A stretch of 64,000 nt of DNA from the NCBI RefSeq assembly GCF_009389715.1, contig NC_052395.1:19317528-19381527 (forward strand), written 5' to 3'. Positions 1,251-62,200 of the stretch are shown here, piece after piece. Position 1 is the first letter of the stretch. Each line of letters starts with the position of its first letter. A model generated the notes under the pieces. It was given only the letters and a program-made list of their open reading frames with translations, did not search any database and was not told the DNA's origin. The position numbers were made by a program, and so were the translations under genes. Source of the stretch: Phoenix dactylifera (lineage: Eukaryota > Streptophyta > Magnoliopsida > Arecales > Arecaceae).

Positions 1251-4200
1251 GTCAGAATCCACGAAACCATATAGGTAAACATCAAAACCACCATAGCATA
1301 GTTCTAAGTCTCTGGTTCTTTCCAGATACCGCAATATCCACTTCACAGCTCTCCAATGTTTCTGGCCTGGATCGCTCATGTATTTGCTCACCACTCCCAC
1401 TGCATGGGCAATATCCAGTCTCGTGCAAACCATGGCATACATAAGGCTTCCGACCGCTGATGAGTAGGGTACATATTTCATCTCATCTCGATCATCCTGC
1501 GTAGTAGGACACTTCTGCTTGAATAACTTGAAGTGTGCACCCAGCGGAGTACTCACAGCTTTAGCCTCGTCCATATTGAACCGCTTCAGCACCTTATCAA
1601 TGTACTCTGTTTGAGACAACTTCAACATTTTAAGCTTTCTGTCCCAGCTGATACGCATCCTAAGAACTTTCTTGGTTTCACCCAAGTCCTTCATTGAAAA
1701 CTTCTGGGACAATTATTCTTTTAGTTTCACAATCTCTCCCATGTTGGCGCTTGCCACCAACATATCATCTACATACAGAAGTAGAATGACATATGAGCTC
1801 TTCAATCCCTTGAAGTAGCAGCAATGATCACCATTACACCTCTGAAAATCATTCTTCAGCATAAATTGATCAAACTTCAAGTACCACTGACGGGGTGCTT
1901 GTTTCAAACCGTACAGACTTTTCTGAAGTCGGCACACCCAATATTTCTTTCCTTCACTACATATCCTTCTGGCTGCTTCATGTAGATTTTCTCTTCAAGA
2001 TCGCCATATAAAAATGCAGTCTTGATGTCAAGCTGCTCAAGATGTAAGTCTTTGGCTGCCACTATACTCAACACCATCCGGATAGTAGACATCTTCACAA
2101 CTGGAGAAAAGATCTCGTCAAAATTAATGCCCTCCTTATGCTGAAAGTCCTTGACCACAAGTCTCGCTTTGAACCTCTCAGAACCATCTAGTTCAAGCTT
2201 CAGTCTGTATACCCACTTATTGTGCAAAGCTCTCTTCCCCTTCGGAAGTGGAACCAAATCTCATGTCCTGTTGGATGATAGGGAATCCATTTCATCATCC
2301 ATGACAAGCTTCCACTACTTGTCACTGGCTTCGACCTGCAAAGCCTCCTTGTAACTTTTTGGCTCACCACCATCCGTAAACAACAAGTACTGTAGGAAGT
2401 CAGCATACCTAGACGGAGCTTTTCTGTTTTTTTTACCCTTGCGCAAAGCAATCGGGATATCAGCTAGCGGTTCTTCTTCTTGTTGTGCTTCTTCCACTGG
2501 CTCAGCAACTTCTTCATCGTCTCGAGACATTGTTTCATCATCCAGCTCTGCGTATTCCGATTTTATAGCTTTAACGCCTTGGCCCGTCTGTTGCTGCAGG
2601 TCCTTGTACATAACCTCTTCATTGAATACAACATTTCTGCTCCTGATGACTTTCTGATCTGTCGCATCCCAGAACCGGTCCAAAGTCATCACCACCGTAC
2701 CCAATGAATGTGCACTTCTTTAACTTTGCATCTAGCTTGGTTCAATTGTCTGCAGTATCAAGCACGTAAGAGATGCAACCAAAAGTACGCAAGTGAGATA
2801 GTTTCACCTCTTTCCCAGTCCATGCTTCCTCCGGCAGTCCAAGCTCCAATGCAACTGAAGGCCCTCTGTTGATCAGATACACTGCTGTACTGACCGCTTC
2901 CGTCTAAAAAATCTTCGGCAACCCTGCATGAAGCCTCATGCACCGTGCCCGCTCGTTGATGGTGCGGTTCATGCGTTCTGCGATGCCATTTTGCTGTGGC
3001 GTTCCTGGAACCGTCTTTAGTCTTCGAATTCCAGCTGAGGTACAATAAGCCTCAAACTCATCACTGCAGTATTCACCCTCATTGTCAGGCTTGAGATACT
3101 TCAATCTCTAACCTGTCTTATTCTCCACTAAAGCCTTCCACCTCTTGAACTTCTCAAATACATCGGATTTGTGCTTCAAGAAGTAGACCCATAGCTTTCG
3201 GGTAGCGTCGTCTATGAACGTGATATAGTACCTTGCTCCTCCATGAGAAGCCACTTGAGTTGGTTCCCACACGTCAGTATGTATGAGTTCAAACTTAGAA
3301 TTTTTTTTGGTACTACCTTCTTTTGAAAAACTGACCTTCTTCTACTTTGACAATACACAATCTTCACAGAATTCCAAATCCACAGATTTTAGATCTCCCA
3401 GTTTTTCTTTGGACATCATCACCTTCATCCCTTTCTGACTCATGTGACCGAGTCTCATGTGCCATGTCCTTGCATCAACAATCGGATTTGCAGCACTGAT
3501 GTTGGAATCAGTATCAGCTGTCATGTATAGTGTTCCCAACCTTGCACCTCGAGCGATCACCAAGGCTCCCTTAGTGATCTTCCAAGTATCATCATTGAAA
3601 GTGGTCAGAAACCCCAAATCCGACAACTAACTTACCGAAATCAGATTTCGAGCCAGTTTGGGTACATGTCGCACATCTCTTAGAGTTAAAGTCATCCTAC
3701 TTGATGTCTTTATCTGAGCATCTCCCTTTCTTACGATGTTGCAACTGTTTCCATCACCAAGATACACCTTGCCGTGATCACCGGCAACATAGTTTGAGAT
3801 GATTGTCTTGTTCCTAGTGGTGTGGAATGAGGCACCTAAGTCGACTATCCACGACTTCGGATGAACATCATAGAACAGTATCAGGGCATTGTCTTCACTT
3901 GCAGTTTCGGCTAGATTAGCACTTGCTTTAGTGTCAGAACCATCGTTGTTCTTTGGCACTTTGCAGTCTTTTCTCAAGTGACCCTTCTGCCCATAATTCC
4001 AGCACTTTCCAAGAGGTCTAGACTTGTTTTTAGACTTGGATCGTCCACCCCTGTTTCTGTCTCCCTTCTTTGAAGTCCTTCCACGTTCTTCAAAAGCCAG
4101 CGCATTTCCAGATGAACTCGCTGATGGATCCAGAATTTTTCTTCGAGCCTCTTCACTCAGAAAAAGAGCCACCACTTCATCAAACCTTGCTGTAGTCTTT

Positions 4201-5524
4201 TCCGAAGAATTACTAACAGCCGTGATGAAGCCTTTCCAACTTTCAGGCATCTGATCTAGAAGAGCTCACGCTTTTACCTCATCAGTGAACGTGATATTCA
4301 CATATTCCAATTGGGCACATAAGGTATTGAATTCACTCAGATGTGAATGAACACTCCCACTGTCTCTCATCTTCAAAGTGAATAACCGTCGAATCAGGAA
4401 TACCTTGTTCGCTCCTGTTAGCTCATTATACATGGAAGCCAGTGTGTCCATCAAATCTTTTGCAGTCTTTACTTTGGATATATTGGCGAGGATCTCTGAT
4501 GCTAAGGACAAACGGATAGCGGCGAGTGCCTTCTTATCAAGACGCTCCCACTTCTCTGATGGCATATCTATCGGCTTTGCTTTTTTTCTCCGCCTAGTGG
4601 TAGATTCAGATCCTTTGAGAGCAAGTAATCCTCCATCTGCATCTATCACACACCAAAGTTCTGTCCGTTGAATTTCTCTATCCTCAATATTCCTTCATCA
4701 GCCATTGGAACATAGGAAACGTAGCTCTAATACCAGTTGTTGCGGATGAAAGCACTCGCCCTCCGATCGTACTATTTTCTTTCCTAGATCCAAACTGCGG
4801 AAAGACGGATCGAGAAGAAGAAGTAGTAGAGAATAAAATCAAGCAATCACAAAGACAATAATTTTACATGGTTCACCCCAATACGGGTTACGTCCATAGA
4901 GGCCATACACAGAGATCAATATATTCAGCAAGGGTTACAACGATCTCTCTTCCTCATTGGAGATTGCACAACTAGGGCATACAAGAGAGATAGAACTCAA
5001 AAGGAACTCACTGCAGTCGCTCTAATCTCCCCTGGGGTTCACAAAAAAAATTCTATTTATAGGTTTTCAACACATAAGGAAACTTTCCTACAAAACCCTA
5101 AGTTAAAAGGCCCATCTTGCCACCATTTCAATCAATCCCGTGATCAGGAGTCGACTCTTCACTTTCAGGGATCGACTCCTGATAAGCTCGAGTCGACTCG
5201 GACATCCTCGGAACGACTTCAATTATTAGCACCGAAGACTGGCACGCTCTGTCTTTCTGAGAGAGTCGACTCCTACAGGGCTGGAGTTGACTCCTACAGG
5301 GCTGGAGTCGACTCCTGCAAGCGACCCCAAAAATAGCTCTCTGTTTCTTCACTGTGGCAAGATGCGAGTTGACCCTCTCATCCCTAGGGTCGACTCAAGC
5401 TTCACATGAGTTGACTCCTAGATGCTAGGGGTCGACTCCATTCAGTTGACACAAACTTTTTCAAGCAAACTCGAGCCAAATTCAATTGCAGTTATTTCGA
5501 GTTTCGATGCATATTTTCTCAACA
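1251..5524 (-). mobile_element. Ty1/copia element, Tork-like, broken fossil
   Basis: Read on the minus strand the order is LTR, primer-binding site, gag with a CCHC knuckle, protease, integrase and reverse transcriptase, which is copia order. Recognisable pieces are gag (about 3630-4650), the protease and GAG-pre-integrase region (about 3340-3900), integrase (about 2760-3330) and RT (about 1260-2260). The RT wording resembles the Tork/Tnt1 lineage. It is broken in roughly ten places. It was cut on the left by a CACTA insertion and continues, if at all, beyond that element. It is itself inserted in the LINE, since LINE sequence resumes right after its LTR. Confidence 0.85.
4738..5524 (-). repeat. 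5' LTR of the Tork-like copia element
   Basis: The LTR is about 787 bp, bounded by TG and CA. On the minus strand it is followed at once by a sequence close to the initiator-methionine tRNA primer site (TGGTATTAGAGC, about 4724-4735). A TATAAATAG box reads on the minus strand at about 5053-5061. Upstream of it, at 5147-5445, is a cluster of the palindrome GAGTCGACTC and variants. The base run just beyond (CGACC at 5525-5529) belongs to the LINE and is the likely target-site copy; its partner is outside the window. Confidence 0.75.
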
Positions 5525-17845: not shown

Positions 17846-20019
17846 GAAGCCATCAGGACCAGTACTTTTCTCTCCTTTGAAATTGAATACGACATCTTTA
17901 ATCTCTTCTAATATGAATGGAGATTCAAGAATGCTGAGATTGTGATTTTGCTGCCCATAGATGAAGTTCCAATCTAGGTTAAACATCAAAAATGCTCTTA
18001 AAGTAGGTTGCAAATGGTTTCTTGATTTCCTCTCCATATGTGACTTCAAATCCATTCCATTCTACCTTATCAATCCAATTATCCATTCTCCAAAGGTTGG
18101 CAGTTTTGTGTAAGAATGCAGTATTGTCATCACCTTCCTTCAATGATTTAATTTTTGCTCTCTGCTTTCAATAAATCTCCTCCACCTTATAGTTTTGTGA
18201 ATCTGATTTTTATAATTTTCATTAAGCTCTTTTTCTACCAATGAAAGTGCATCATGTTCCTCCTTTCTATCAAAATGTTGAATTTGTTTAAGCAGCTTAT
18301 CTTTTCTGCTCTAGTTGACAATCTTACCATTGAAGACCAACTTCTCAATGCACTCCTTGTTGCTCTTAATTTGAGCACGAGGTTAATTACTGCATCACAA
18401 GTAGAACCGATGGACTTCCAGACCTTTGATACCACATCATTGATTTCGTCACAAGTCAACCAACTTCTATCAAACCTGAATATACTACAGGAAAATCGGC
18501 CTTTTCCGACGCTTTTTTCCCGACGCTAGAGAGAAGCGTCGGAAAAAAAGCGAATACCACTAAGATTTGCCGACGCTTTAACTAAGCATCGGTAATTCTC
18601 AAGAATAGATGACGCACAAGGGCGTTGTCGTAAAGTTATAGAAAAGCCGATGCTTTTTTAAATATCATAGGAATAGACGACGCTTATTAACGTCGTTGTA
18701 CTCACATCCTAAGACGGCGCGTATAAGCGCCGTCAAAAGTCAAATTAATAACAAAACCAAGCGGCCAGCTCCCTCCTCCTCATTTTGTATCCCGATCGAT
18801 CAAGCTCTAGGTCCTCTCCTCCTCCCTTCTCTCCGACGACGAGCGGCGTCCGACGGAAAGCTTCTCTCCTCCTCCCTCCTCTCCAGCACCGAGCGTCCGT
18901 CCACATCCTCCTCTCCTCCTCCCTTCTCTGCGGCGCCGACCGGCCGACCCCATCTTCCGCCACCTGAGAAAAAGGTAATTCAAAAGATTTTAGAGGCAAA
19001 GATAGGTTACAAAAATGAAGCCTTACATTTTAATGATTCGTATGTTGAATGCTTATTTTAGAAGAAATTTGTAGTGTGTTTATGAAATTAACAGTTTTGG
19101 CGACAATTTCTATTTGTTTCTACCAGGTATTACTGCATTTCTTAAATTTGAGTAATGCTAATGGAAGTATGCTAGCAAAGACAATCAAATGTCACAAAAG
19201 TTTGGGATTAGAAACAAAAGCAAGGTTAGATGCATGTTAGGCTATGTTTTTCTTTTCGTCGTGTTCTTAGGTTCTTTGGCAGCTGTGTCTTTAATCTGGT
19301 ATTCTTTTTTGTACTTTGGTGGTGTCGCCCTGAGTAGCAAGTACATTGGTATTTGGTAGCGAGCTCATTAAAGAGATCAAAGCTCTTTATACCGTTTCTT
19401 CCCTTTTTCGTTTAAGGATGCTGTTCAGGCCCAGAAGATATGTCAATGCACTTGCAACCATTAAAAACAAAAATGTATTAAATATGCATTATATGATTTT
19501 AATTCTCCCTTCATCCCATTTCTTTAAGTGCTATGCTAGCTATTCAGATGGATTAAAGAGTTTTTATTTCCCGTTATTTATTCTTCTTTTATAGTCTTGT
19601 TCCTCTTGGTTCATAGGGTTGTAATATACTTTTAACTTTAAGACATGTAACTTTACAAAATGCCAATTCATGTAACTTCTTTTGTGATGTTTTGGAGATC
19701 TTACACTTGCTTAAAATGTCCTGAGAATGCTTCACTCGTGTATGATTGGGGCAGCGCTTGCAATCCCTAATATGATATAAACGCTTAGAACTATATCAAT
19801 TTTTATGATATCTCCATATTTATGCACTTATCTCTTTAATTCTTTGACATTTTGTTTCTTGAGGAGAATGGGGGAGGCAGCCATTGGAAAGCCAACTGAA
19901 CAACAGGTGAAAGTTTATTAAGTGCATATCATTGAATTAAAAATATTTAGTCTGTTGTAAAAATATTTTCAGTCTCCAAGGGGATGTCTAATTATTTAAA
20001 AAATTTAACTATACTATGG

Positions 20020-48856: not shown

Positions 48857-50409
48857 GAGAGAGCATAAAATTTGTTGTATCTTGCCGTTCATATCTGATG
48901 ACCAGCAATTCGTTCATGCAATACTGTTGCCCAAGGTGGCAACCTAAGAGGGGAGGGGGTGAATTGGGTTTTTCTAAATTTTTAGTGCTTTAAAAACTTT
49001 CTTAGTTGAGTGCAGTGGATGCTTTCTTAAATTACTTCAATGAATTAAACTATAGCAAAGATGAAAGATAATGCAAGAATAATCACAAGTGAAGCCACAG
49101 CACAAACACCACGATGTATAGTGGTTCGGTGCACCCCAAGGCACCTATGTCCACTCCCCAAGCATCCCCTTGGAAATTTTACTATAATTCCTCAAATTAC
49201 AGTAGGATTGTTTTTCAGGCTCACAATCCAAAACCTTTACAATTTGGTTTTTCGGGATCACCAATAACCTACGTTGGTTTTGCGGGCTCACCAACAACCT
49301 AACGTTGGTTTTGCGGGCTCACCAACAACCTACACCGTTGGTTTTTGCGGGGTCACCAACAAACCTTACAATGAATAATAGAAAAGAAGTTTAAAGCTCT
49401 TAAATGAGCAAATATAACAAATATGCATAAAAAGAAGAAAGTAGAAAATAAGTATCGGTTTGTAGATTGCTCTTCTCTTCTTTCCCAAGGTTGCTTCACT
49501 CTTCAATGAATTGGTTGAGCTCTTGAAGGCACTTGAATTCTGCTCAATACACTTCTTTTGGATTTGAACTTGAAACAATAACCTTAACTTTCTTAAATTT
49601 CCTCTTTCTCTTGAATGCACACTTAGATTCCTACCAAGATTATTTTCTTTGATGAATAGTGGCTCTTAAATACTTCTCCAACCTCCAAAGATCACTTTAC
49701 TACCGTTGAAATGGAGAAAGCAGCCGTTTATAGTCGTTGGGGACTTAAAAAGTACATCTGTAGAACTAGCTGTTGGGTTGTTACCCGTGCTGGGGTTGAC
49801 CCAAGCTTTTCTGGGGTCGGCTCAAGTCATTGTTCATTAATCTGGGGTCGGCTCAAACTTTTCTGGGGTCGGCCCCTGCTATAGTGGGGTCGGCCCATGC
49901 TACAGTGGGGTCGGCCCTCTCAGAAAATCCAAAAGCTTGTTTTTCTGACTCTTCACGCTAGGGTCGACTCATGCTTTCTTGGGGTCGACCCATGCTACAG
50001 TAGGGTCGACCCAAGCTACAGTGGGCACTACAGAAAAAGTCAGTTTTACCGATGCTTTTTTGCCGACGCTTTTTACAAGCATCGGCAATTTTCGGTCTAG
50101 CGTCAAAATTTGCCGACACTTGTAAAAAGCGTCGGTATAGTCTCGAACCTAAGACGACGCTAAAAAGCATCGTCAGAAGCCAACGCACCAGGCTAAATCC
50201 CAACCCTCTTCTGACCACCCCCGTCGGAAGCCACCCTCACACACCAGTCTCTCTCTACCCTCGAGCCTCATCTCTCTCATCCCTCCTCCCTCCTCTCTCC
50301 GGGTTTTCGTTTTTCCGGCCACCGCCCTCCTCTCTCTATTTAACTAGTAGTATTACCCACATCTCTCTCGCCCATTCCTCGTCTTCTCTCTCTCTCTAAC
50401 CCATCAAAG

Positions 50410-50771
50410 GTGCCTTCTCATCATCATCGCCCCCCCTCCCTAACCCCCTCCGGATTCAAGAAGCAGAACGGCTCCGGCGATGATGACTTCGCCCGCCTCT
50501 TCGCCGCCTCCTTGGATCCCGACTCCGCCCCTCTCTCCCCCGAACTGTGGATCCTCAAGTCCCGCCTCGTCGCCGGCGAGACCCTCTACGGCCTCTTCCT
50601 CCTGCGCTCCTCCCCGACCCTCGCCGAGATCGCCAGCCTCGCCGGCTACGACTACGTGGTCGTCGACATAGAGCACGGCTCTGGCGGCATCGCCGAGGCC
50701 CTCCCCTGCCTCCGCGCCCTCGCCGCCGCCCTCACCCCAGCCATCCTCTGCCTTCTGCAGCTCTCCGCCGC
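50410..50771 (+). pseudogene. Captured HpcH/HpaI aldolase family fragment
   Basis: The open frame beginning MPSHHHRPP contains [57 protein letters not shown] and TPAILCL, which I recognise as the start of the plant HpcH/HpaI aldolase (2-keto-3-deoxy acid aldolase) domain. Only about the first 100 residues are present. The catalytic metal-site region farther down the family is missing, so no enzyme can be made. The stretch is strongly GC-rich, unlike the surrounding transposon, as expected for a first exon copied from a monocot gene. Confidence 0.75.
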
Positions 50772-50870
50772 CAGTCAGGAGAAGGCCCGGCGTCCGTAAG
50801 GGCTTCGAGGGTGGACAGTTGCCCCTCTACCGTCGAATCCCCAAGCTCCGTGGAATTGCTGGAGGTATCA
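50772..50870 (+). pseudogene. Captured plastid ribosomal protein L15 (uL15c) fragment
   Basis: In the frame one step off the aldolase frame the bases read [10 protein letters not shown] then [16 protein letters not shown], a hallmark stretch of bacterial-type L15 as found in plant plastid RPL15. It follows the aldolase piece without any intron, then changes to unrelated sequence and reaches a splice donor (GTAAGT, about 50932). Only about 30 residues remain. The source gene is not in the window. Confidence 0.75.
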
Positions 50871-51201
50871 TTTTCTTCTGTACCACATTTGAACCTGAAT
50901 CTGCTCCCACACCTGCACTTTTGGTAAGTAAAGAGGGAATTGAATCCTAACATTTTAACCTCTCTCCCTTGGCTTCACTACTCATAGAGTGGTCAAGAGT
51001 ATTCCTAGGAACTTAACGCAAGATTTGTTACTTTCAGTATGGAGATTTGTGTTCATTTAATGCTTCCTAAAGAGATCTCGCTTGTTACTTGCCCTCCAGA
51101 TTTTGCATATGATAAGTTTACAAGATCAATTTTCTAAACCAATTGGCTATCTTGGTTTCTGAACAAAACACTTGAAAATACTAATGAGATTTCATGAACA
51201 G

Positions 51202-51271
51202 GCTTTCTAGTGTTCCTGAAGGAGCTTATGTTCAGTGGGAAATTGAGCTACTTGGCTTTGAAATGCCTAAG
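51202..51271 (+). pseudogene. Captured PAS1/FKBP-type prolyl isomerase exon fragment
   Basis: Between an acceptor (GAACAG) and a donor (GTAATG) a short exon reads LSSVPEGAYVQWEIELLGFE, then MPK. This resembles the end of an FKBP domain just before the TPR region in plant PAS1/FKBP72-like proteins. The assignment comes from memory of the WEIELLGFE-PK motif and is moderate, because the exon is only about 23 codons. Confidence 0.55.
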
Positions 51272-52488
51272 GTAATGAAGCTTCTTAAGTGCTCCAAACA
51301 TCTGGAACTCTTATGTATTGTGGTCCTTCCCTCTGTTTTGCTAAAAAAAGGGGGGATTCTTGTGAATTTTGAATTGATTGTTTTAAATTGCTTAGAACCT
51401 CTAATATGTGCCATTTTATTGTAGATGTATACCATCCATTTATTTGGAGATCATTACCAAAACATCTGAAGGACTCCAAGTAAATGTTTTGCTTGTCTCA
51501 GTAACTGTGGTTGATGTAATAAAATACTGTGTAAATTCTAGACAATGATGCCCAAATATGTTTTCCAATCAAGCTATAGATAGTTTTTGTGTAGGGCAAT
51601 TTATTTTATTCAATATGAACTCATTTTCTTATAAATTTCCTGCAAACCGGTTAAAGAGTTTTTTAGAGCTTGCTCGAATGAATGATTGGTCCTATATAAA
51701 TGTTACTTTTATTGACTCATTCATTGGAAATCTGATTTAGACCATGCCAGTACAAACTACAATGATGGAAATGTGATTGTGTTGCTAATATAATTCGGAG
51801 AAAATTATGATTGATGAATTGGACATGACCATTTGTATTTTAGTTTGCTGGCTGGCACCTCTGTCTTGATCTGGTGTTGAGGCTCGAGAAGTAAACTATC
51901 CCATCATTTATTTATTTATAATTGCATTACATTTATTATCACTATTTTTATTTCCAGATTTGAGAGAAGATGGTGTTTGTATGGTAAAAAAGATTATGCA
52001 GCAAGTGCCAGGTGGTATGGTGGATTCTTGATTAGATTTGTAGAAGAGCTTGCAGTTTCGGATGGAATAACATTTACATGAAAATTAGGCATGTTTGGTG
52101 GAAGAGAATGGTAAGCATATTTAGAAAACAATTACATGCTGCATCTAGGAAAACAATCCAGCATTCAGCAATTGCTCTTCCTAATTTTTGCTTGTTTGTT
52201 AAAGAACAAATCTCACAAGTTAATAAGCACAGAAATGGTGCAGACGTAGAGCTCCAATGTTCTGATCAGTTCTCTGCACAGAAATGGTGCTTTCCCTTCT
52301 CACTTCTTTGAGCTTTGATGAAGCTGGTAGCTTGTGTAGATGGGACATCCGTGTGAGGATGGTTTAGTAAGACATCCCTTTTGGGGTTGTTGACTTCTAT
52401 TATCTTGTCATTTGATGTTTTTCCCAGTGGATTTGTAGTGATAGAAATGGGTTTTCTTAGTCTGCTTTGGGTTTGTTGTGAGTTTTAG

Positions 52489-53424
52489 GACAAGAAGGAA
52501 GGGCAGGTTGCAAAGGAAGCTGGGACCAATGAAATCGATGTCCATGGTGATGCTGGGAGGGAAGAAGACGATGTGGTGGTGGAGATCCTTGCAGGGTTCA
52601 AGCCGGTAGATCACCCGCTCGAGCCTTCGGACGAGGACCCACCTGCGAAATGGCCAATGCCCGATTCTTCCCTTCTGAATGTAAGTGGCTAACGTGTCCT
52701 AATAGAGACCTTTTTCTTGCTATGTGTGACTGTATTTATAAAATTCCCTGATTAGTGGTATGATGACATGTTGTTTGCCCGTATGCATGAGATATTGGAA
52801 TTTTTAAATTTTTTTTAATAGACTTGGATTATGGCGACTTCAAATGATACTAGGACTCGTATATGTTCATCTGGAAGTGATAAAAATGAGACTGTCAAAT
52901 AAATTTCTCCATATTTAATAGAATATAAAGGGTACTCAAATAGGAAAGTCTTTGCCTTGGGCTTTTTATTTTCGAAATAAATTTCTAGACTTGTATATGT
53001 TTCTTATTTTGCAAAGTACATTGTAATTCTAAGATATGACAATTTAAATATTTCGAATGATTTGAATGTTTGTGTCAATGTAAATGTAATACAGGTTCAT
53101 ATTGTACATTTTGCACCAAATTTAACAGTTAGTTATTTTGTAGGTTCGAAGTCCTCTGATGGTTCTGCAAGGCAGATGAGGGAAGTTGCATGTCCCACCT
53201 GCACAGTCCATCTTCAGGTCAGGCACCTAGGGCCCTAGGTTCCCCCCCCACCCCTTCTCTTCCCCTTCTCTCATTCTCTTGATTATTTTGCGCACTGTTT
53301 CCGCATGCTGTTTGGCCCGAATTATATGATACAAGTTGTTTTGCAGGTTCAAGTTCCAGCCTCGGGATCTGAAACAATAGAATGTGGTGTGTGCCAGCAC
53401 CCATTCCTGGTTGATGCTCATTGA
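52489..53424 (+). pseudogene. Captured three-exon fragment of a zinc-ribbon protein
   Basis: Exons 52489-52680, 53144-53217 and 53347-53424 are bordered by AG and GT. The first reads from KKEGQVAKEAG to KWPMPDSSLLN and is acidic. The second includes REVACPTCTVHLQ. The third reads VQVPASGSETIECGVCQHPF and ends LVDAH with a stop. Together CPTC and CGVC form a likely four-cysteine zinc ribbon at a natural C-terminus. I believe this is the tail of a conserved plant nuclear or DNA-binding type protein but cannot name it. It has no start codon region here. Confidence 0.55.
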
Positions 53425-55197
53425 TGTCTTCTGATTTTATCACATCGTGGTAATGCATCCGACTGAGCTTCAGGAAATTTTCTGTGTCACAGCTAATAGG
53501 CGCGGTTACCGGCTTTGTATATTCATTAATATGGTCATGTTTTACTCATTAGACTTGGTGGTTCTTTGTATATGAATCTTCTTTGAGCAGGCATATTTGG
53601 GATCGTCAAGTGTGTTAAGTGGGTTCGGATGACTGGAAACTAATTTAAAATGCTTGGATGGTTTTATTTGTTGATGCTTGTCTAGTCTGGCATTAGCAAT
53701 TTACTCAATAAATTAGTTGGAGCTGCTTTGCTTCCTTTATGTTTATAATCTTCCTGAGTTTCTTCCTTTTTGTGTATGAATGAGGGTTGTATCATGTTCT
53801 TACCACTCCTTGCCCCGTGGCGATGCTTGCCACTTGTGGATCTATAACTATCTCTGCTTGGGCTTTTCCTTGTGGACCATGTATTCTTTAGTTTTTTCTA
53901 TATCTTCTTGAGTTTAAGAAATGTATTCATTGCTGGCTGTCATGTCATTTGCATGATGAGTCATTAGTTGTTCAAAACTTTTATTTGCCAGATGCTGGTT
54001 ATGACTGCATGTACATGTAGATTTGCATGTACATGTAGGTTCATATTATAATTTACATTCGTATTTTTATTTTTTTTAAAAAAATAGCAATCCTGATGTT
54101 TTAAAGCGTTGGTAAATAAAAGTTGTGGCACGCCTATGCCGACGCTTTAAAAATACATTTGCCGACGCTTTAAAGCGTCGGCGTTTACTAGGCATGCTTT
54201 GGGCTTTCCGGACGCTTTAAAGCGTCGGCGAATGTGGTTTTTGCCGACGCTTTTATTAGCATCGGAAAAGCCCTGTTTTTGCCGACGCTTTCTCATAGCG
54301 TCGGCAAAAACTTTTGCCACTCCGGTATCGCCGACGCTTTTGCGACGCTTCTGTTTGCGTCGCGGGAACTTTAGCCGACGCTTATAAGCGTCGGTAAAGA
54401 TTCTAAAAAGCGTCGGAAAAGATGAATTTTCTTGTAGTGGGGGTCAACCCTATCAGGGATTCCAGAGACATATTTTTGAGTTCTTAACCTGGGGTCGGCT
54501 CATGGTCTCTTGGGGTCAGCTCCACTGGGGTCGGCTCAAGGTTTCTTGGGGTCGGCTCCACCTGGGGTCGGCTCAAAGAAACTTGGGGTTGGCCCTCTCA
54601 GTAAATTCCAAAAGGTTATATTTTCAGATGGCTGAAGTTGGGGCCGGCCCGAGCTTTTCTGGGATCGATCCGAGATCTGTGCCATTTATGCCATTGTGCC
54701 AGAATATGCCAAAGTGTGCCAAATTGCGCCAGGGTCGACTCCATCTCTTCTGGGGTCAACTCTAACCCTATTTTTCTGCATCTTTAGGTTAGATTTGCAT
54801 ATAAAACATATAAAAGAAGTAACAACATTACAAATCATTTTTTTCTCCTAATGATGCTTGGCACATTAAAGTTTAAGCTCATTAAGCATGTAAATGACAG
54901 AGTTAAGCTTCAATCAAAAGAACTTGACTCTAAGATATATTAAACTCTAAATTAGTTCTTTCCTTAAGTTCTTCCAATATAATTTGTTTTAGATGTGTTC
55001 TTGAAAGTTCTTTTAAATATATCAAGCAAAGCATATCAAGAATGTATCGAATCTTTCCTCCTTACTTACTTATGTATTAGATCAATTGAATTGAAAGCAT
55101 TAGTATTTCCATTTGACCTCAATGGCTTTGTAAACATCAAAATCACACTAGGATCCTCAAATACAAATATGGTGGCTAGTGATTTAACTAGACCTTG

Positions 55198-59267: not shown

Positions 59268-62200
59268 CACTACAGGAAATGTGGGTTTTGCCGACTATGT
59301 TTTCCCGACGCTAGGGGAAAGCGTCGGGAAAGGTCGGCTCAGCGCCAACCTTTGCCGACGCTTTGATGTAGCGTCGGTAAATCTGGAACAATAACGACGC
59401 TTTATAGCGTCGTTAAAACTTTGACAAACAACGACGCTTTTAAGCGTCGTTATAAAGCATAAAACCCCACCCCGTCGCCAGGCCCCCTCTCCTCATTTTG
59501 TATCAGTCGATGCCCTAGCTACGCGCCGTCGACCTCCTCCTCCTCCTCCTCTTTGTTTTTAACGCTCGCTCGGCCCCCTCTCCTCATACTCTCTCGGTTG
59601 AGCCCCATCCCTAGCCCCGATCGGCGATCGACGATTCCGCTTCTCCGCCGCCGTCTGAAATAATTAGTCGCTGGGACTATTATACCCTGGCACAAACTCT
59701 AAACAGTAACTGGCACGGCAACTTAAGTCTGAATCATATTTGTGAGGGAGGAAGAGAAGAGGAGGTGATGAAGAAGATAGTCACCATTCATTTCATCTTA
59801 TTCATCCACAACAAGAGAGGAGAAGGCGGAGGTTTTATAATCCTCCTGAGAACCTTCTGGATATGAAGGTTTGTTACAGTTTGTTAGGGAGAAACTAACT
59901 TCATGTGCTGGTGCTTCCGTGAGTGGTCTGGTGGGAATTGAGTGGAGTTAACATCCCCCGGCAAGGTGATGATGGGGTTTTCAGCATCAGCTTGTGGCAG
60001 AGAGTGCGATGTCGTTGGGATGACAGAGCCTTTGTGAAAATATCAGCTGGCTGATCCTCAGATGCTATGTGAGCTGCGCGGATTTCACCGGAGTTGATTT
60101 TCTCCCGGACGAAGTGATAATCAACTTCAATGTGCTTGGTCCGAGCATGGAATACGGGATTGGATGCCAAAGCTAAGGCTGAGATGTTATCACAGTGTAA
60201 TGGAGTGGGTGTGTTAGGTGGTATTTGGAGTTCTGATAACAGACGACGAAGCCAGATGATCTCGGAGGCAGTGACTGCGAGAGCTCTATATTCAGCTTCG
60301 GTGGAGGAGCGGGCTACCGTCGGCTGCTTCTTTGCATGCCAAGAAATTAGGTTGGGACCAAGGTAGATGCAGTAACCTGTAGTGGAGCGCCGATCATTGG
60401 AATCGCCTGCCCAGTCGGAGTCGGAAAAAGCAGAGAGCCGGAGAGGTCCAGGTTTGAATGAGAGACCGAGATTGGAGGTACCTTTGATGTAGCGAAATAC
60501 TCGCTTAAGAAGCTGAAAATGTATTTGTAGAGGATTATGCATAAATTGGCAAAGATAATTGACTGCAAAGGAGAGGTCTGGTCTTGTGATTGTCAGATAT
60601 TGAAGGGAGCCGGTGAGGCATCTGTAATGTGTAGGATCAGAATATAGAAGAGACCCGTTGGGGAAGACAGGCTGTTTCAATGGAAGGGGTGATGCCACTG
60701 GTTTACAGTCCTGCATGCCTGCTTTTTGAAGAAGTTTCAGGGCATAGGATGTTTGATTGAGTGTGACTCCATGGTTAGAGAATGAAGCATGGATGTCGAG
60801 GAAATGAGATAGTTGGCCCAGGTCCTTCATCTGAAACTCACTTTGGAGTAGAAGAAATAATTTTGTTAAGGAGTCAGAACAATTTCCGGTGAGCAAGATG
60901 TCATCCACGTAGATTAGTATATATGTTGAGACCGGTCCTTGATGTGAATAGAAGAGAGACGGATCAGCTGTACTGGATTTGAAGCCATTGCGAAGGAGAA
61001 AATTGGAGAAGGTTGCAAACCATTGTCTGGGACTCTGTTTGAGGCCATAGATGGCTTTCCGAAGACGGCAGACATGGTCTAGATACTGAGGGTTGCTGAA
61101 GCCTTGTGGCTGCTCCATGTAGACCAGCTCCTCTAAATTCCCGTGAAGGAATGCATTAGAGACATCCAATTGGCGAACGTGCCACTGTTTGGTAATTGAG
61201 AGAGCGAGGAGAAGTCTGATTGTTGGAAACTTAGCGACTGGGCTGAAAGTTTCGGAGTAGTCAACGCCAAATTGTTGTTTGAATCCCTGTGCTACTAATC
61301 TTGCTTTATACCGAGCTATGGAACCGTCTGAGTTCCTCTTAATTCTGTATGTCCACCGACAGCCAAGAACTTGTTGAGAGGGGGGCCGAGGTACCAACTC
61401 CCAGGTTTGTTGTTTGAGCAGAGCATCAAACTCGGTGGACATGGCGTTTCTCCACTGTGGATCAGTGACAGCCTTAGTGTAGCATGTAGGTTCAGAGTTT
61501 TCGGGTGAGGTACTGAGAAGGGAGAATATATGTCTGGGTTTAAGGGAACCAGTTTGTAGTCTGGTGACCATGTGATGACGAGTGGGTGGTGACGGTGGGG
61601 TAGTTGAGGTGGACGAAGAGTCTATTGGCTCCAGGTGTTGTGAGACAGGAGGAGACTGGTCTGTAGAGGGTGGAGGTGATGTATGGAGAGGGGAAGTGGG
61701 AGTATTTGATGGAGTTCTGGGTAGTAAGGAGGGTGGAACAAGACAGGGAAATGGTAGAAGAGGTGGTTGTGATGAGTTTGTAGAGGAAGAAGAAGAGTGG
61801 GGAAATTTAGTTTCATCAAAGCGAACGTGCCGGGAGATTATCACTGTTCCAGTAGCTGGGTTGTAGCACTTATAAGCCTTGTGATTTGGGGAGTAACCAA
61901 TGAAGATGCAAGGTGTGGAACGAGGAGAAAGTTTGCTAGTAGACTGAGGACGTAGCCAGGGGTAGCACTGACAGCCAAATGCTCTGAGAGATGTATAGTC
62001 TGGTGTTTGGTGATACAATACTTCGAAGGGAGATTTAAAATTGAGAATGGATGTGGGTAGCCTGTTTATGAGATAGGTAGCGGTGAGCAGAGCATCGATC
62101 CAGAATTTGGTAGGAAGAGAAGAGTGAATTAGAAGACTGCGTGTGATTTCAAGCAAGTGACGATGCTTCCTTTCGGCTACCCCATTTTGCTCTGGGGTGT

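Follow-up and report, generated by a model that had tools for sequence, protein, structure and literature searches.

The 64,000-nucleotide window of Phoenix dactylifera DNA analysed here (contig NC_052395.1; unprefixed coordinates below are those of the window) contains a non-autonomous CACTA element of 4,414 bp at 50026-54439. It is a Pack-CACTA (Pack-TYPE) element, in that it carries host-gene DNA whose parents lie elsewhere and exists in several copies of the whole unit. Pieces of at least six host genes are present, five of them with placed parents and the sixth known from a paralogue. The element is made up of parts of two Pack-CACTA lineages; very probably it was mobilised in trans and gathered this cargo stepwise by template-switching repair.

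The element begins with CACTACAGAAAAA at 50026 and finishes at 54439 with TTTTCTTGTAGTG. The terminal inverted repeats (TIRs, CACTACAGAAAAA/CACTACAAGAAAA; 50026-50038 and 54427-54439, both listed on the + strand) agree at 11 of 13 bases and have the CACTA/CACTG-type beginning by which CACTA (DTC) transposons are recognised in PMC4423477. A target-site duplication (TSD) of GGG, with the 3-bp length of CACTA insertions, stands on either side (50023-50025 and 54440-54442, unstranded). Insertion was into a minisatellite of TGGGGTCGGCCC units, and the empty site can be read directly: the flanks joined minus one GGG give AGCTACAGTGGGGTCAACCC, which resembles one normal TGGGGTCGGCCC unit. Subterminal GCCGACGCTT-type repeats, also a CACTA feature, occur in both orientations near both ends, with 15 sites (at most one mismatch) confined to the outer 111 bp on the left and the outer 302 bp on the right. 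The left set occupies 50061-50177 (+), and the right subterminal region (54048-54426, +) is closest to elements L011, L012 and L023-L025. These ends, the TSD and the empty site bear out an initial annotation, made from the sequence, which had placed a Pack-CACTA element with a GGG target copy at this position.

A scan of the window for ends with at most one mismatch lying 300-15,000 bp apart returned 50026-54439 as the sole pair with a matching 3-bp TSD. Other CACTA-like ends with the same subterminal motif, at 1074-1247, 18483-18569 and 59268-59354, have no TSD-matched partner in the window. No transposase family was found in a Pfam scan (E 0.01) of the 10 longest of the element's 33 open frames of at least 55 codons, where HpcH_HpaI was the sole match. 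Genome-wide, 150 matches to Transposase_21 (PF02992) were scored of 534 candidates, all 150 of them matching, and none of these lies inside the element.

Parents were sought in the window's own assembly (773,078,369 bases in 2,391 contigs). Whole-genome DNA searches scored the best 40 candidates, and copy numbers are therefore lower bounds; the whole element as query gave at least 117 matches (best 40 of 1,734 candidates scored). A locus counted as a parent if its similarity to the element broke off abruptly at both edges and the surrounding sequence carried on as a host gene. Six parent loci, comprising five genes and one segment, were placed on six contigs, all of them other than the element's own.

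Reading from the left, an interior stretch (50181-50502, +) precedes the captured genes; its last 72-73 bp, adjoining the aldolase piece, also occur in the aldolase-only elements L043 and L044, and no source for it turned up, no separate search having been made. The HpcH/HpaI aldolase fragment (50503-50788, +; Pfam PF03328, E=1.2e-7) is 91.3% identical to an intronless gene with a 369-codon frame at C17:3.742M; a second aldolase gene is found at C18:9.697M. The next piece, part of an exon of plastid ribosomal protein L15 with the start of its intron (50784-50885, +), is 99.0% identical to C9:15261786-15261887. This parent was located by DNA search; its frame is similar to chloroplastic L15 chains (6eri, E 1.7e-26), and 3.7 kb downstream an L15/L27A domain interrupted by one stop was matched at E 6.9e-6. 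A PF00828 search for L15 gave six matches, two of them near L15 DNA matches, and two further loci (L051, L052) were set aside as presumably cytosolic L27a. The segment that follows (50885-51029, +) is 98.6% identical to C1:2467500-2467645, where no gene was recognised.

The PAS1-like FKBP piece (51048-51411, +) is 97.8% identical to its parent at C3:23.684M and contains two exons, one reaching to about 51124 and one at 51202-51271, which when joined give an FKBP_C match just under the Pfam cut-off (E=0.0012). Two matches to a TPR segment of Arabidopsis PAS1 lie 4-5 kb downstream of the parent, the name PAS1 being presumptive. The donor of the first exon reads AT in the focal copy, as opposed to GT in the parent and in seven other element copies read. 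The piece at 51416-52279 (+), comprising the end of the last exon of a PP2C gene and its 3' flank, is 98.3% identical to C14:6999489-7000353; two PP2C exons lie upstream there (E 3.2e-14 and 4e-10), and the match sets in within the final codons of a frame taken to be the last PP2C exon. The rightmost gene piece (53101-54022, +; 91.4% identity with gaps) contains two 3' exons (53144-53217 and 53347-53424) and the 3' region of a FYVE zinc-finger gene at C18:5.207M. At this parent locus a FYVE domain (E 7.4e-13) lies upstream, the zinc-ribbon exons follow some 2 kb downstream of it on the same strand, and a LINE-like frame comes next; the domain and the exons presumably belong to one gene.

Between the PP2C and FYVE pieces are module VII (52288-52966, +), which is shared with the CACTA elements L023-L025, and module VIIb (52983-53105, +), a right-interior sequence of the L023-L025 lineage. 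Module VII includes an exon of a small gene (52489-52680) without a Pfam match. In a protein search, this exon gave, besides the focal copy, 12 copies with 83-95% identity and a single match at 47%, at C2:5292550; there the exon has the same end point and is followed by a GTAAGT donor. It is accordingly taken as a sixth gene, recognised through this paralogue rather than through its parent. Loci on C350 (L022, 1.9 kb shared) and C11 (L026, 1.3 kb) were at first taken as parents of module VII, and no parent is now claimed: the module in L022 lies between two LTR-like repeats of a copia-like element and belongs to a block shared with CACTA elements, and a locus at C1:35.278M (L054) likewise bears a CACTA end. 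In L022:1-9001 these two repeats measure 0.92 kb and are 91% identical, and a matching CACTA right end occurs 11-12 kb further on (C350:141329-141670). The names of the copia-like and LINE-like frames are presumptive.

The initial annotation had described fragments of about four unrelated host genes, all on one strand and with splice borders kept. The pieces do come from different loci and all coding pieces are on the + strand, but the count was too low. Its aldolase and plastid L15 pieces are traced to C17 and C9, whereas its single PAS1-like exon proves to be two exons of the gene on C3, and its three-exon zinc-ribbon tail keeps two exons, from the FYVE gene on C18, and loses the third (52489-52680) to another gene. 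Several splice borders are indeed kept, the PAS1 first-exon donor being lost. The genome search that it had proposed yielded five genes on five other contigs and one segment locus; host homologues thus exist, and one host gene as the source of all pieces is ruled out, as they map to different contigs. The PP2C piece and the two-lineage structure of the element are additions to that description.

The two halves of the element resemble different relatives. In the left interior, at element positions 156-478, the focal copy shows 93-95% identity with L013-L016, and L023-L025 give no match. Its right end shows 84-96% identity with L023-L025 (over 172 bp only in L024) and, over parts only, 74-85% with L013-L016. 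Because similarity splits in this way between left and right, and because modules VII and VIIb are common to the focal element and L023-L025, the left and right halves derive from two different Pack-CACTA lineages that meet at 52280-52287. The element is itself a fusion in which the second lineage supplied the right half, with module VII and the right end.

In L025, module VIIb passes directly into the right end (ACAGGTTCATATTGTTATAATGTGTTTTTATAATTTACATTCG), and L023 and L024 are similar apart from a few changes. The L025 sequence AGGTTCATATTGTTATAATGTGTTTTTATAATTTACATTCG corresponds to the place at which, in the focal element, two copies of AGGTTCATATT enclose the FYVE piece. In order, the focal copy has AGGTTCATATTGT, the FYVE piece, the 15-bp tandem copy, the second AGGTTCATATT and ATAATTTACATTCG. 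The FYVE piece is thus read as a filled site, unfilled in all three second-lineage elements read (L023, L024 and L025). The junction on its right (54006-54047, +) is templated, with the 15-bp tandem copy TGCATGTACATGTAG (54006 and 54024) and an 11-bp copy, AGGTTCATATT at 54037-54047, of 53093-53103; on its left, VIIb and FYVE share ATTGT.

Comparison with the parental sequences covered eight internal junctions. The 8-bp filler between PP2C and module VII (52280-52287, +) forms, with its flanks, a 15-bp copy (52276-52290) of 52227-52241, a template 49 bp upstream inside the PP2C piece. The 16-bp filler between VII and VIIb (52967-52982, +) is partly templated, 12 bp of it (with flank) being repeated 78 bp upstream. 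L15 and the segment share 1 bp at their junction. Direct repeats of 15 bp within 100 bp occur at two of the eight junctions, as against 1 of 300 positions taken at random from the interior.

Of the nineteen element loci read, 13, including the focal copy, have matching 3-bp TSDs (6 by script and 7 by eye). These 13 represent 12 separate insertions, L009 and L010 having the same flanks; the same element within these flanks on C292 and C1, respectively, probably represents two haplotypes of one site, by which copy counts are inflated. At the six remaining loci, either the right end was not located (L014, L018, L027) or the triplets are unlike (L017, L023, L024), as they are in L059, which was read later. 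The same internal junctions recur with different TSDs on other contigs, and the element has therefore transposed as a unit in several copies.

The composition of these relatives, judged against the six parent loci, forms a ladder. L043 and L044 carry about 0.87 kb of the aldolase and nothing from the other five parents, and L059 carries aldolase and PAS1. L013-L016 contain aldolase, L15 (524 bp, partly deleted in L015), the C1 segment (640 bp), PAS1 and PP2C (1.1 kb), with a right end of another type. The focal element, L009, L010 and L011 have shortened L15 and segment pieces (L15 end at 1015 and segment start at 1256 in each), PAS1 (shortened in L011), PP2C cut at 4512, module VII and FYVE. 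L012, L017, L018 and L019 are deletion forms. Element positions 2776-3068 are absent from L009-L012 and L017, and L018 and L019 resume at 3072, so that, of the FYVE-bearing copies read, the focal copy alone still has the left border of the insert. Kimura two-parameter (K2P) divergence from the parents is 0.074 for the aldolase (270 aligned bases), 0.035 for FYVE (without gaps), 0.022 for PAS1, 0.016 for PP2C, 0.010 for L15 (1 change in 102) and 0.007 for the segment (1 in 145), an order that fits the ladder.

The aldolase-only elements (L043:350-1666 and L044:94-1544) have open frames of 329 and 365 codons, and L044 matches PF03328 at E=1.3e-40. The VDMEHG motif of the gene is altered to VDMDDG in L043 and to VDMEDG in L044, which, given the role of the histidine, makes aldolase activity doubtful. 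Part of the PAS1 piece is shared by L046:1-1501, where what we take to be a cyclophilin-like first exon is read upstream, presumably from another gene captured by, or lying next to, this element family.

From these observations a sequence of events may be proposed. A CACTA transposase acting in trans would have mobilised the element. The first lineage would have acquired an aldolase fragment, then PAS1, and then PP2C and L15 with the neighbouring segment, the placing of the last two captures relative to each other being presumptive. The second would have carried module VII and taken the FYVE gene end inside itself, presumably before the two lineages were joined at 52280-52287 and the resulting composite moved as a whole. 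The microhomology, the templated fillers, the 11-bp duplication around the FYVE insert and the unfilled site suggest that new pieces were most likely added when breaks within elements were repaired and the repair switched template to unrelated loci. In C5:18036309-18046801, a Transposase_21 match at C5:18042276, which contains two TAG stops and is flanked by aldolase matches, is a possible relative of the autonomous partner.

Several results weigh against this history. None of the 150 scored PF02992 matches is linked to the element's ends, and the outermost left end (positions 1-155) does not separate the lineages, being 74-85% identical to both. The aldolase/L15 junction can be read either as 5-bp microhomology (GGCCC shared) or as an 11-bp filler, and no clear microhomology is seen at two of the eight junctions, segment/PAS1 (12-18 bp unassigned) and PAS1/PP2C (4 bp). 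Repeats of at least 12 bp, at three of eight junctions, are a weak result against the control (19 of 300 random positions). The short pieces (102 and 145 bp) date weakly, and trees of the shared pieces are mostly unresolved, with only L011+L012 well supported (100/99); they settle neither the order of the copies nor whether the focal copy is basal. Finally, L059 contains a perfect internal 13-bp CACTACAAGAAAA terminus at 982-994, exactly between aldolase and PAS1, which for that step points to an element-in-element or tandem-element fusion and not to simple gap repair.

This last observation brings in the strongest alternative, the tandem-insertion route of Arabidopsis Pack-CACTA elements, in which two elements inserted close together are deprived of their inner ends and the intervening DNA then moves as part of a hybrid (described in PMC8903248 and PMC13317346). 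As the account of the whole element it is a possibility of clearly lower standing. It explains the L059 internal terminus and the composite of two lineages better, and L028:3345-5068, with two left halves in tandem, each after the same 12-bp flank TCTTGGATGGAG, accords with it and reads as a local tandem duplication. However, tandem insertion needs chromosomal DNA lying between two insertions, whereas the FYVE piece occupies a site that is empty in the sisters and bounded by an 11-bp duplication; no subterminal motif (at most one mismatch) remains between 50137 and 54137, and the six parent loci are on six contigs other than the element's own. Both template switching and tandem insertion may have acted. 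It is an even question whether the empty and filled forms, the templated joins and the fusion make template-switch break repair inside the element directly readable as a CACTA capture route, beside tandem re-mobilisation, that leads from one captured gene to at least six.

An improbable alternative is that the element is expressed, as a selected chimeric protein or as a regulatory RNA against the parent genes. The common strand of the coding pieces and the several splice sites kept would allow this, and chimeric splicing of this kind is described for soybean Tgm-Express1 (PMC1947982). The aldolase frame, however, stops at a TAA just beyond the L15 junction, the PAS1 donor is lost in the focal copy, the aldolase piece has dN/dS of 0.77 against its parent (98 codons, a few of them junction codons), and the copies carry differing deletions. 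Aldolase frames inside the elements give dN/dS of 0.31 and 0.52 against the gene and 0.42 for L043 against L044, values not taken as selection because base composition and methylation can bias them. The frames and substitutions give no sign of a selected chimeric protein, and the element is most likely without coding function. An ordinary pseudogene cluster or assembly artefact between CACTA-like ends, which the short length of the pieces, with nothing further found, might suggest, is refuted almost beyond doubt by the recurrence of the same junctions on other contigs with their own TSDs, and LTR or Helitron capture is ruled out by the TIRs and TSD.

The way in which class II elements acquire unrelated genes is still debated. 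This element is a well-preserved example of a known plant gene-shuffling kind, and its value is its unusually legible history: parents, intermediate elements and an unfilled site occur in one assembly, which allows the capture steps to be followed at single-base resolution. The gene combination itself is unlikely to matter to the host, any effect on which would be conjectural. No report of Pack-CACTA elements in palms was found in the literature searched, as judged from listings; the available text of PMC8903248 contains neither 'palm' nor 'Phoenix', and that of PMC13317346 has 'palm' only within an author's name.

Among known systems, soybean Tgm-Express1, a CACTA element of 5.7 kb, similarly has CACTA-type ends around five unrelated host-gene fragments with exons and introns kept, according to PMC1947982. 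Its chimeric splicing was shown by RT-PCR, whereas the focal element is known here from DNA; relatives and parents here add the history of assembly. The Pack-CACTA elements of Arabidopsis, rice and maize are likewise non-autonomous, hold coding DNA from several loci and show fusion of smaller elements (PMC8903248). Unlike these, the palm element has unfilled sisters and templated fillers, which suggest that at least one piece was inserted by repair inside the element. Animal Pack-TIRs, attributed to gap filling or FoSTeST, share the microhomology and short insertions at breakpoints and the capture inside an existing element, but 59.8% of the animal cases are intrachromosomal (PMC8277862), whereas the six focal parent loci are all on other contigs and several captures are combined in one element.

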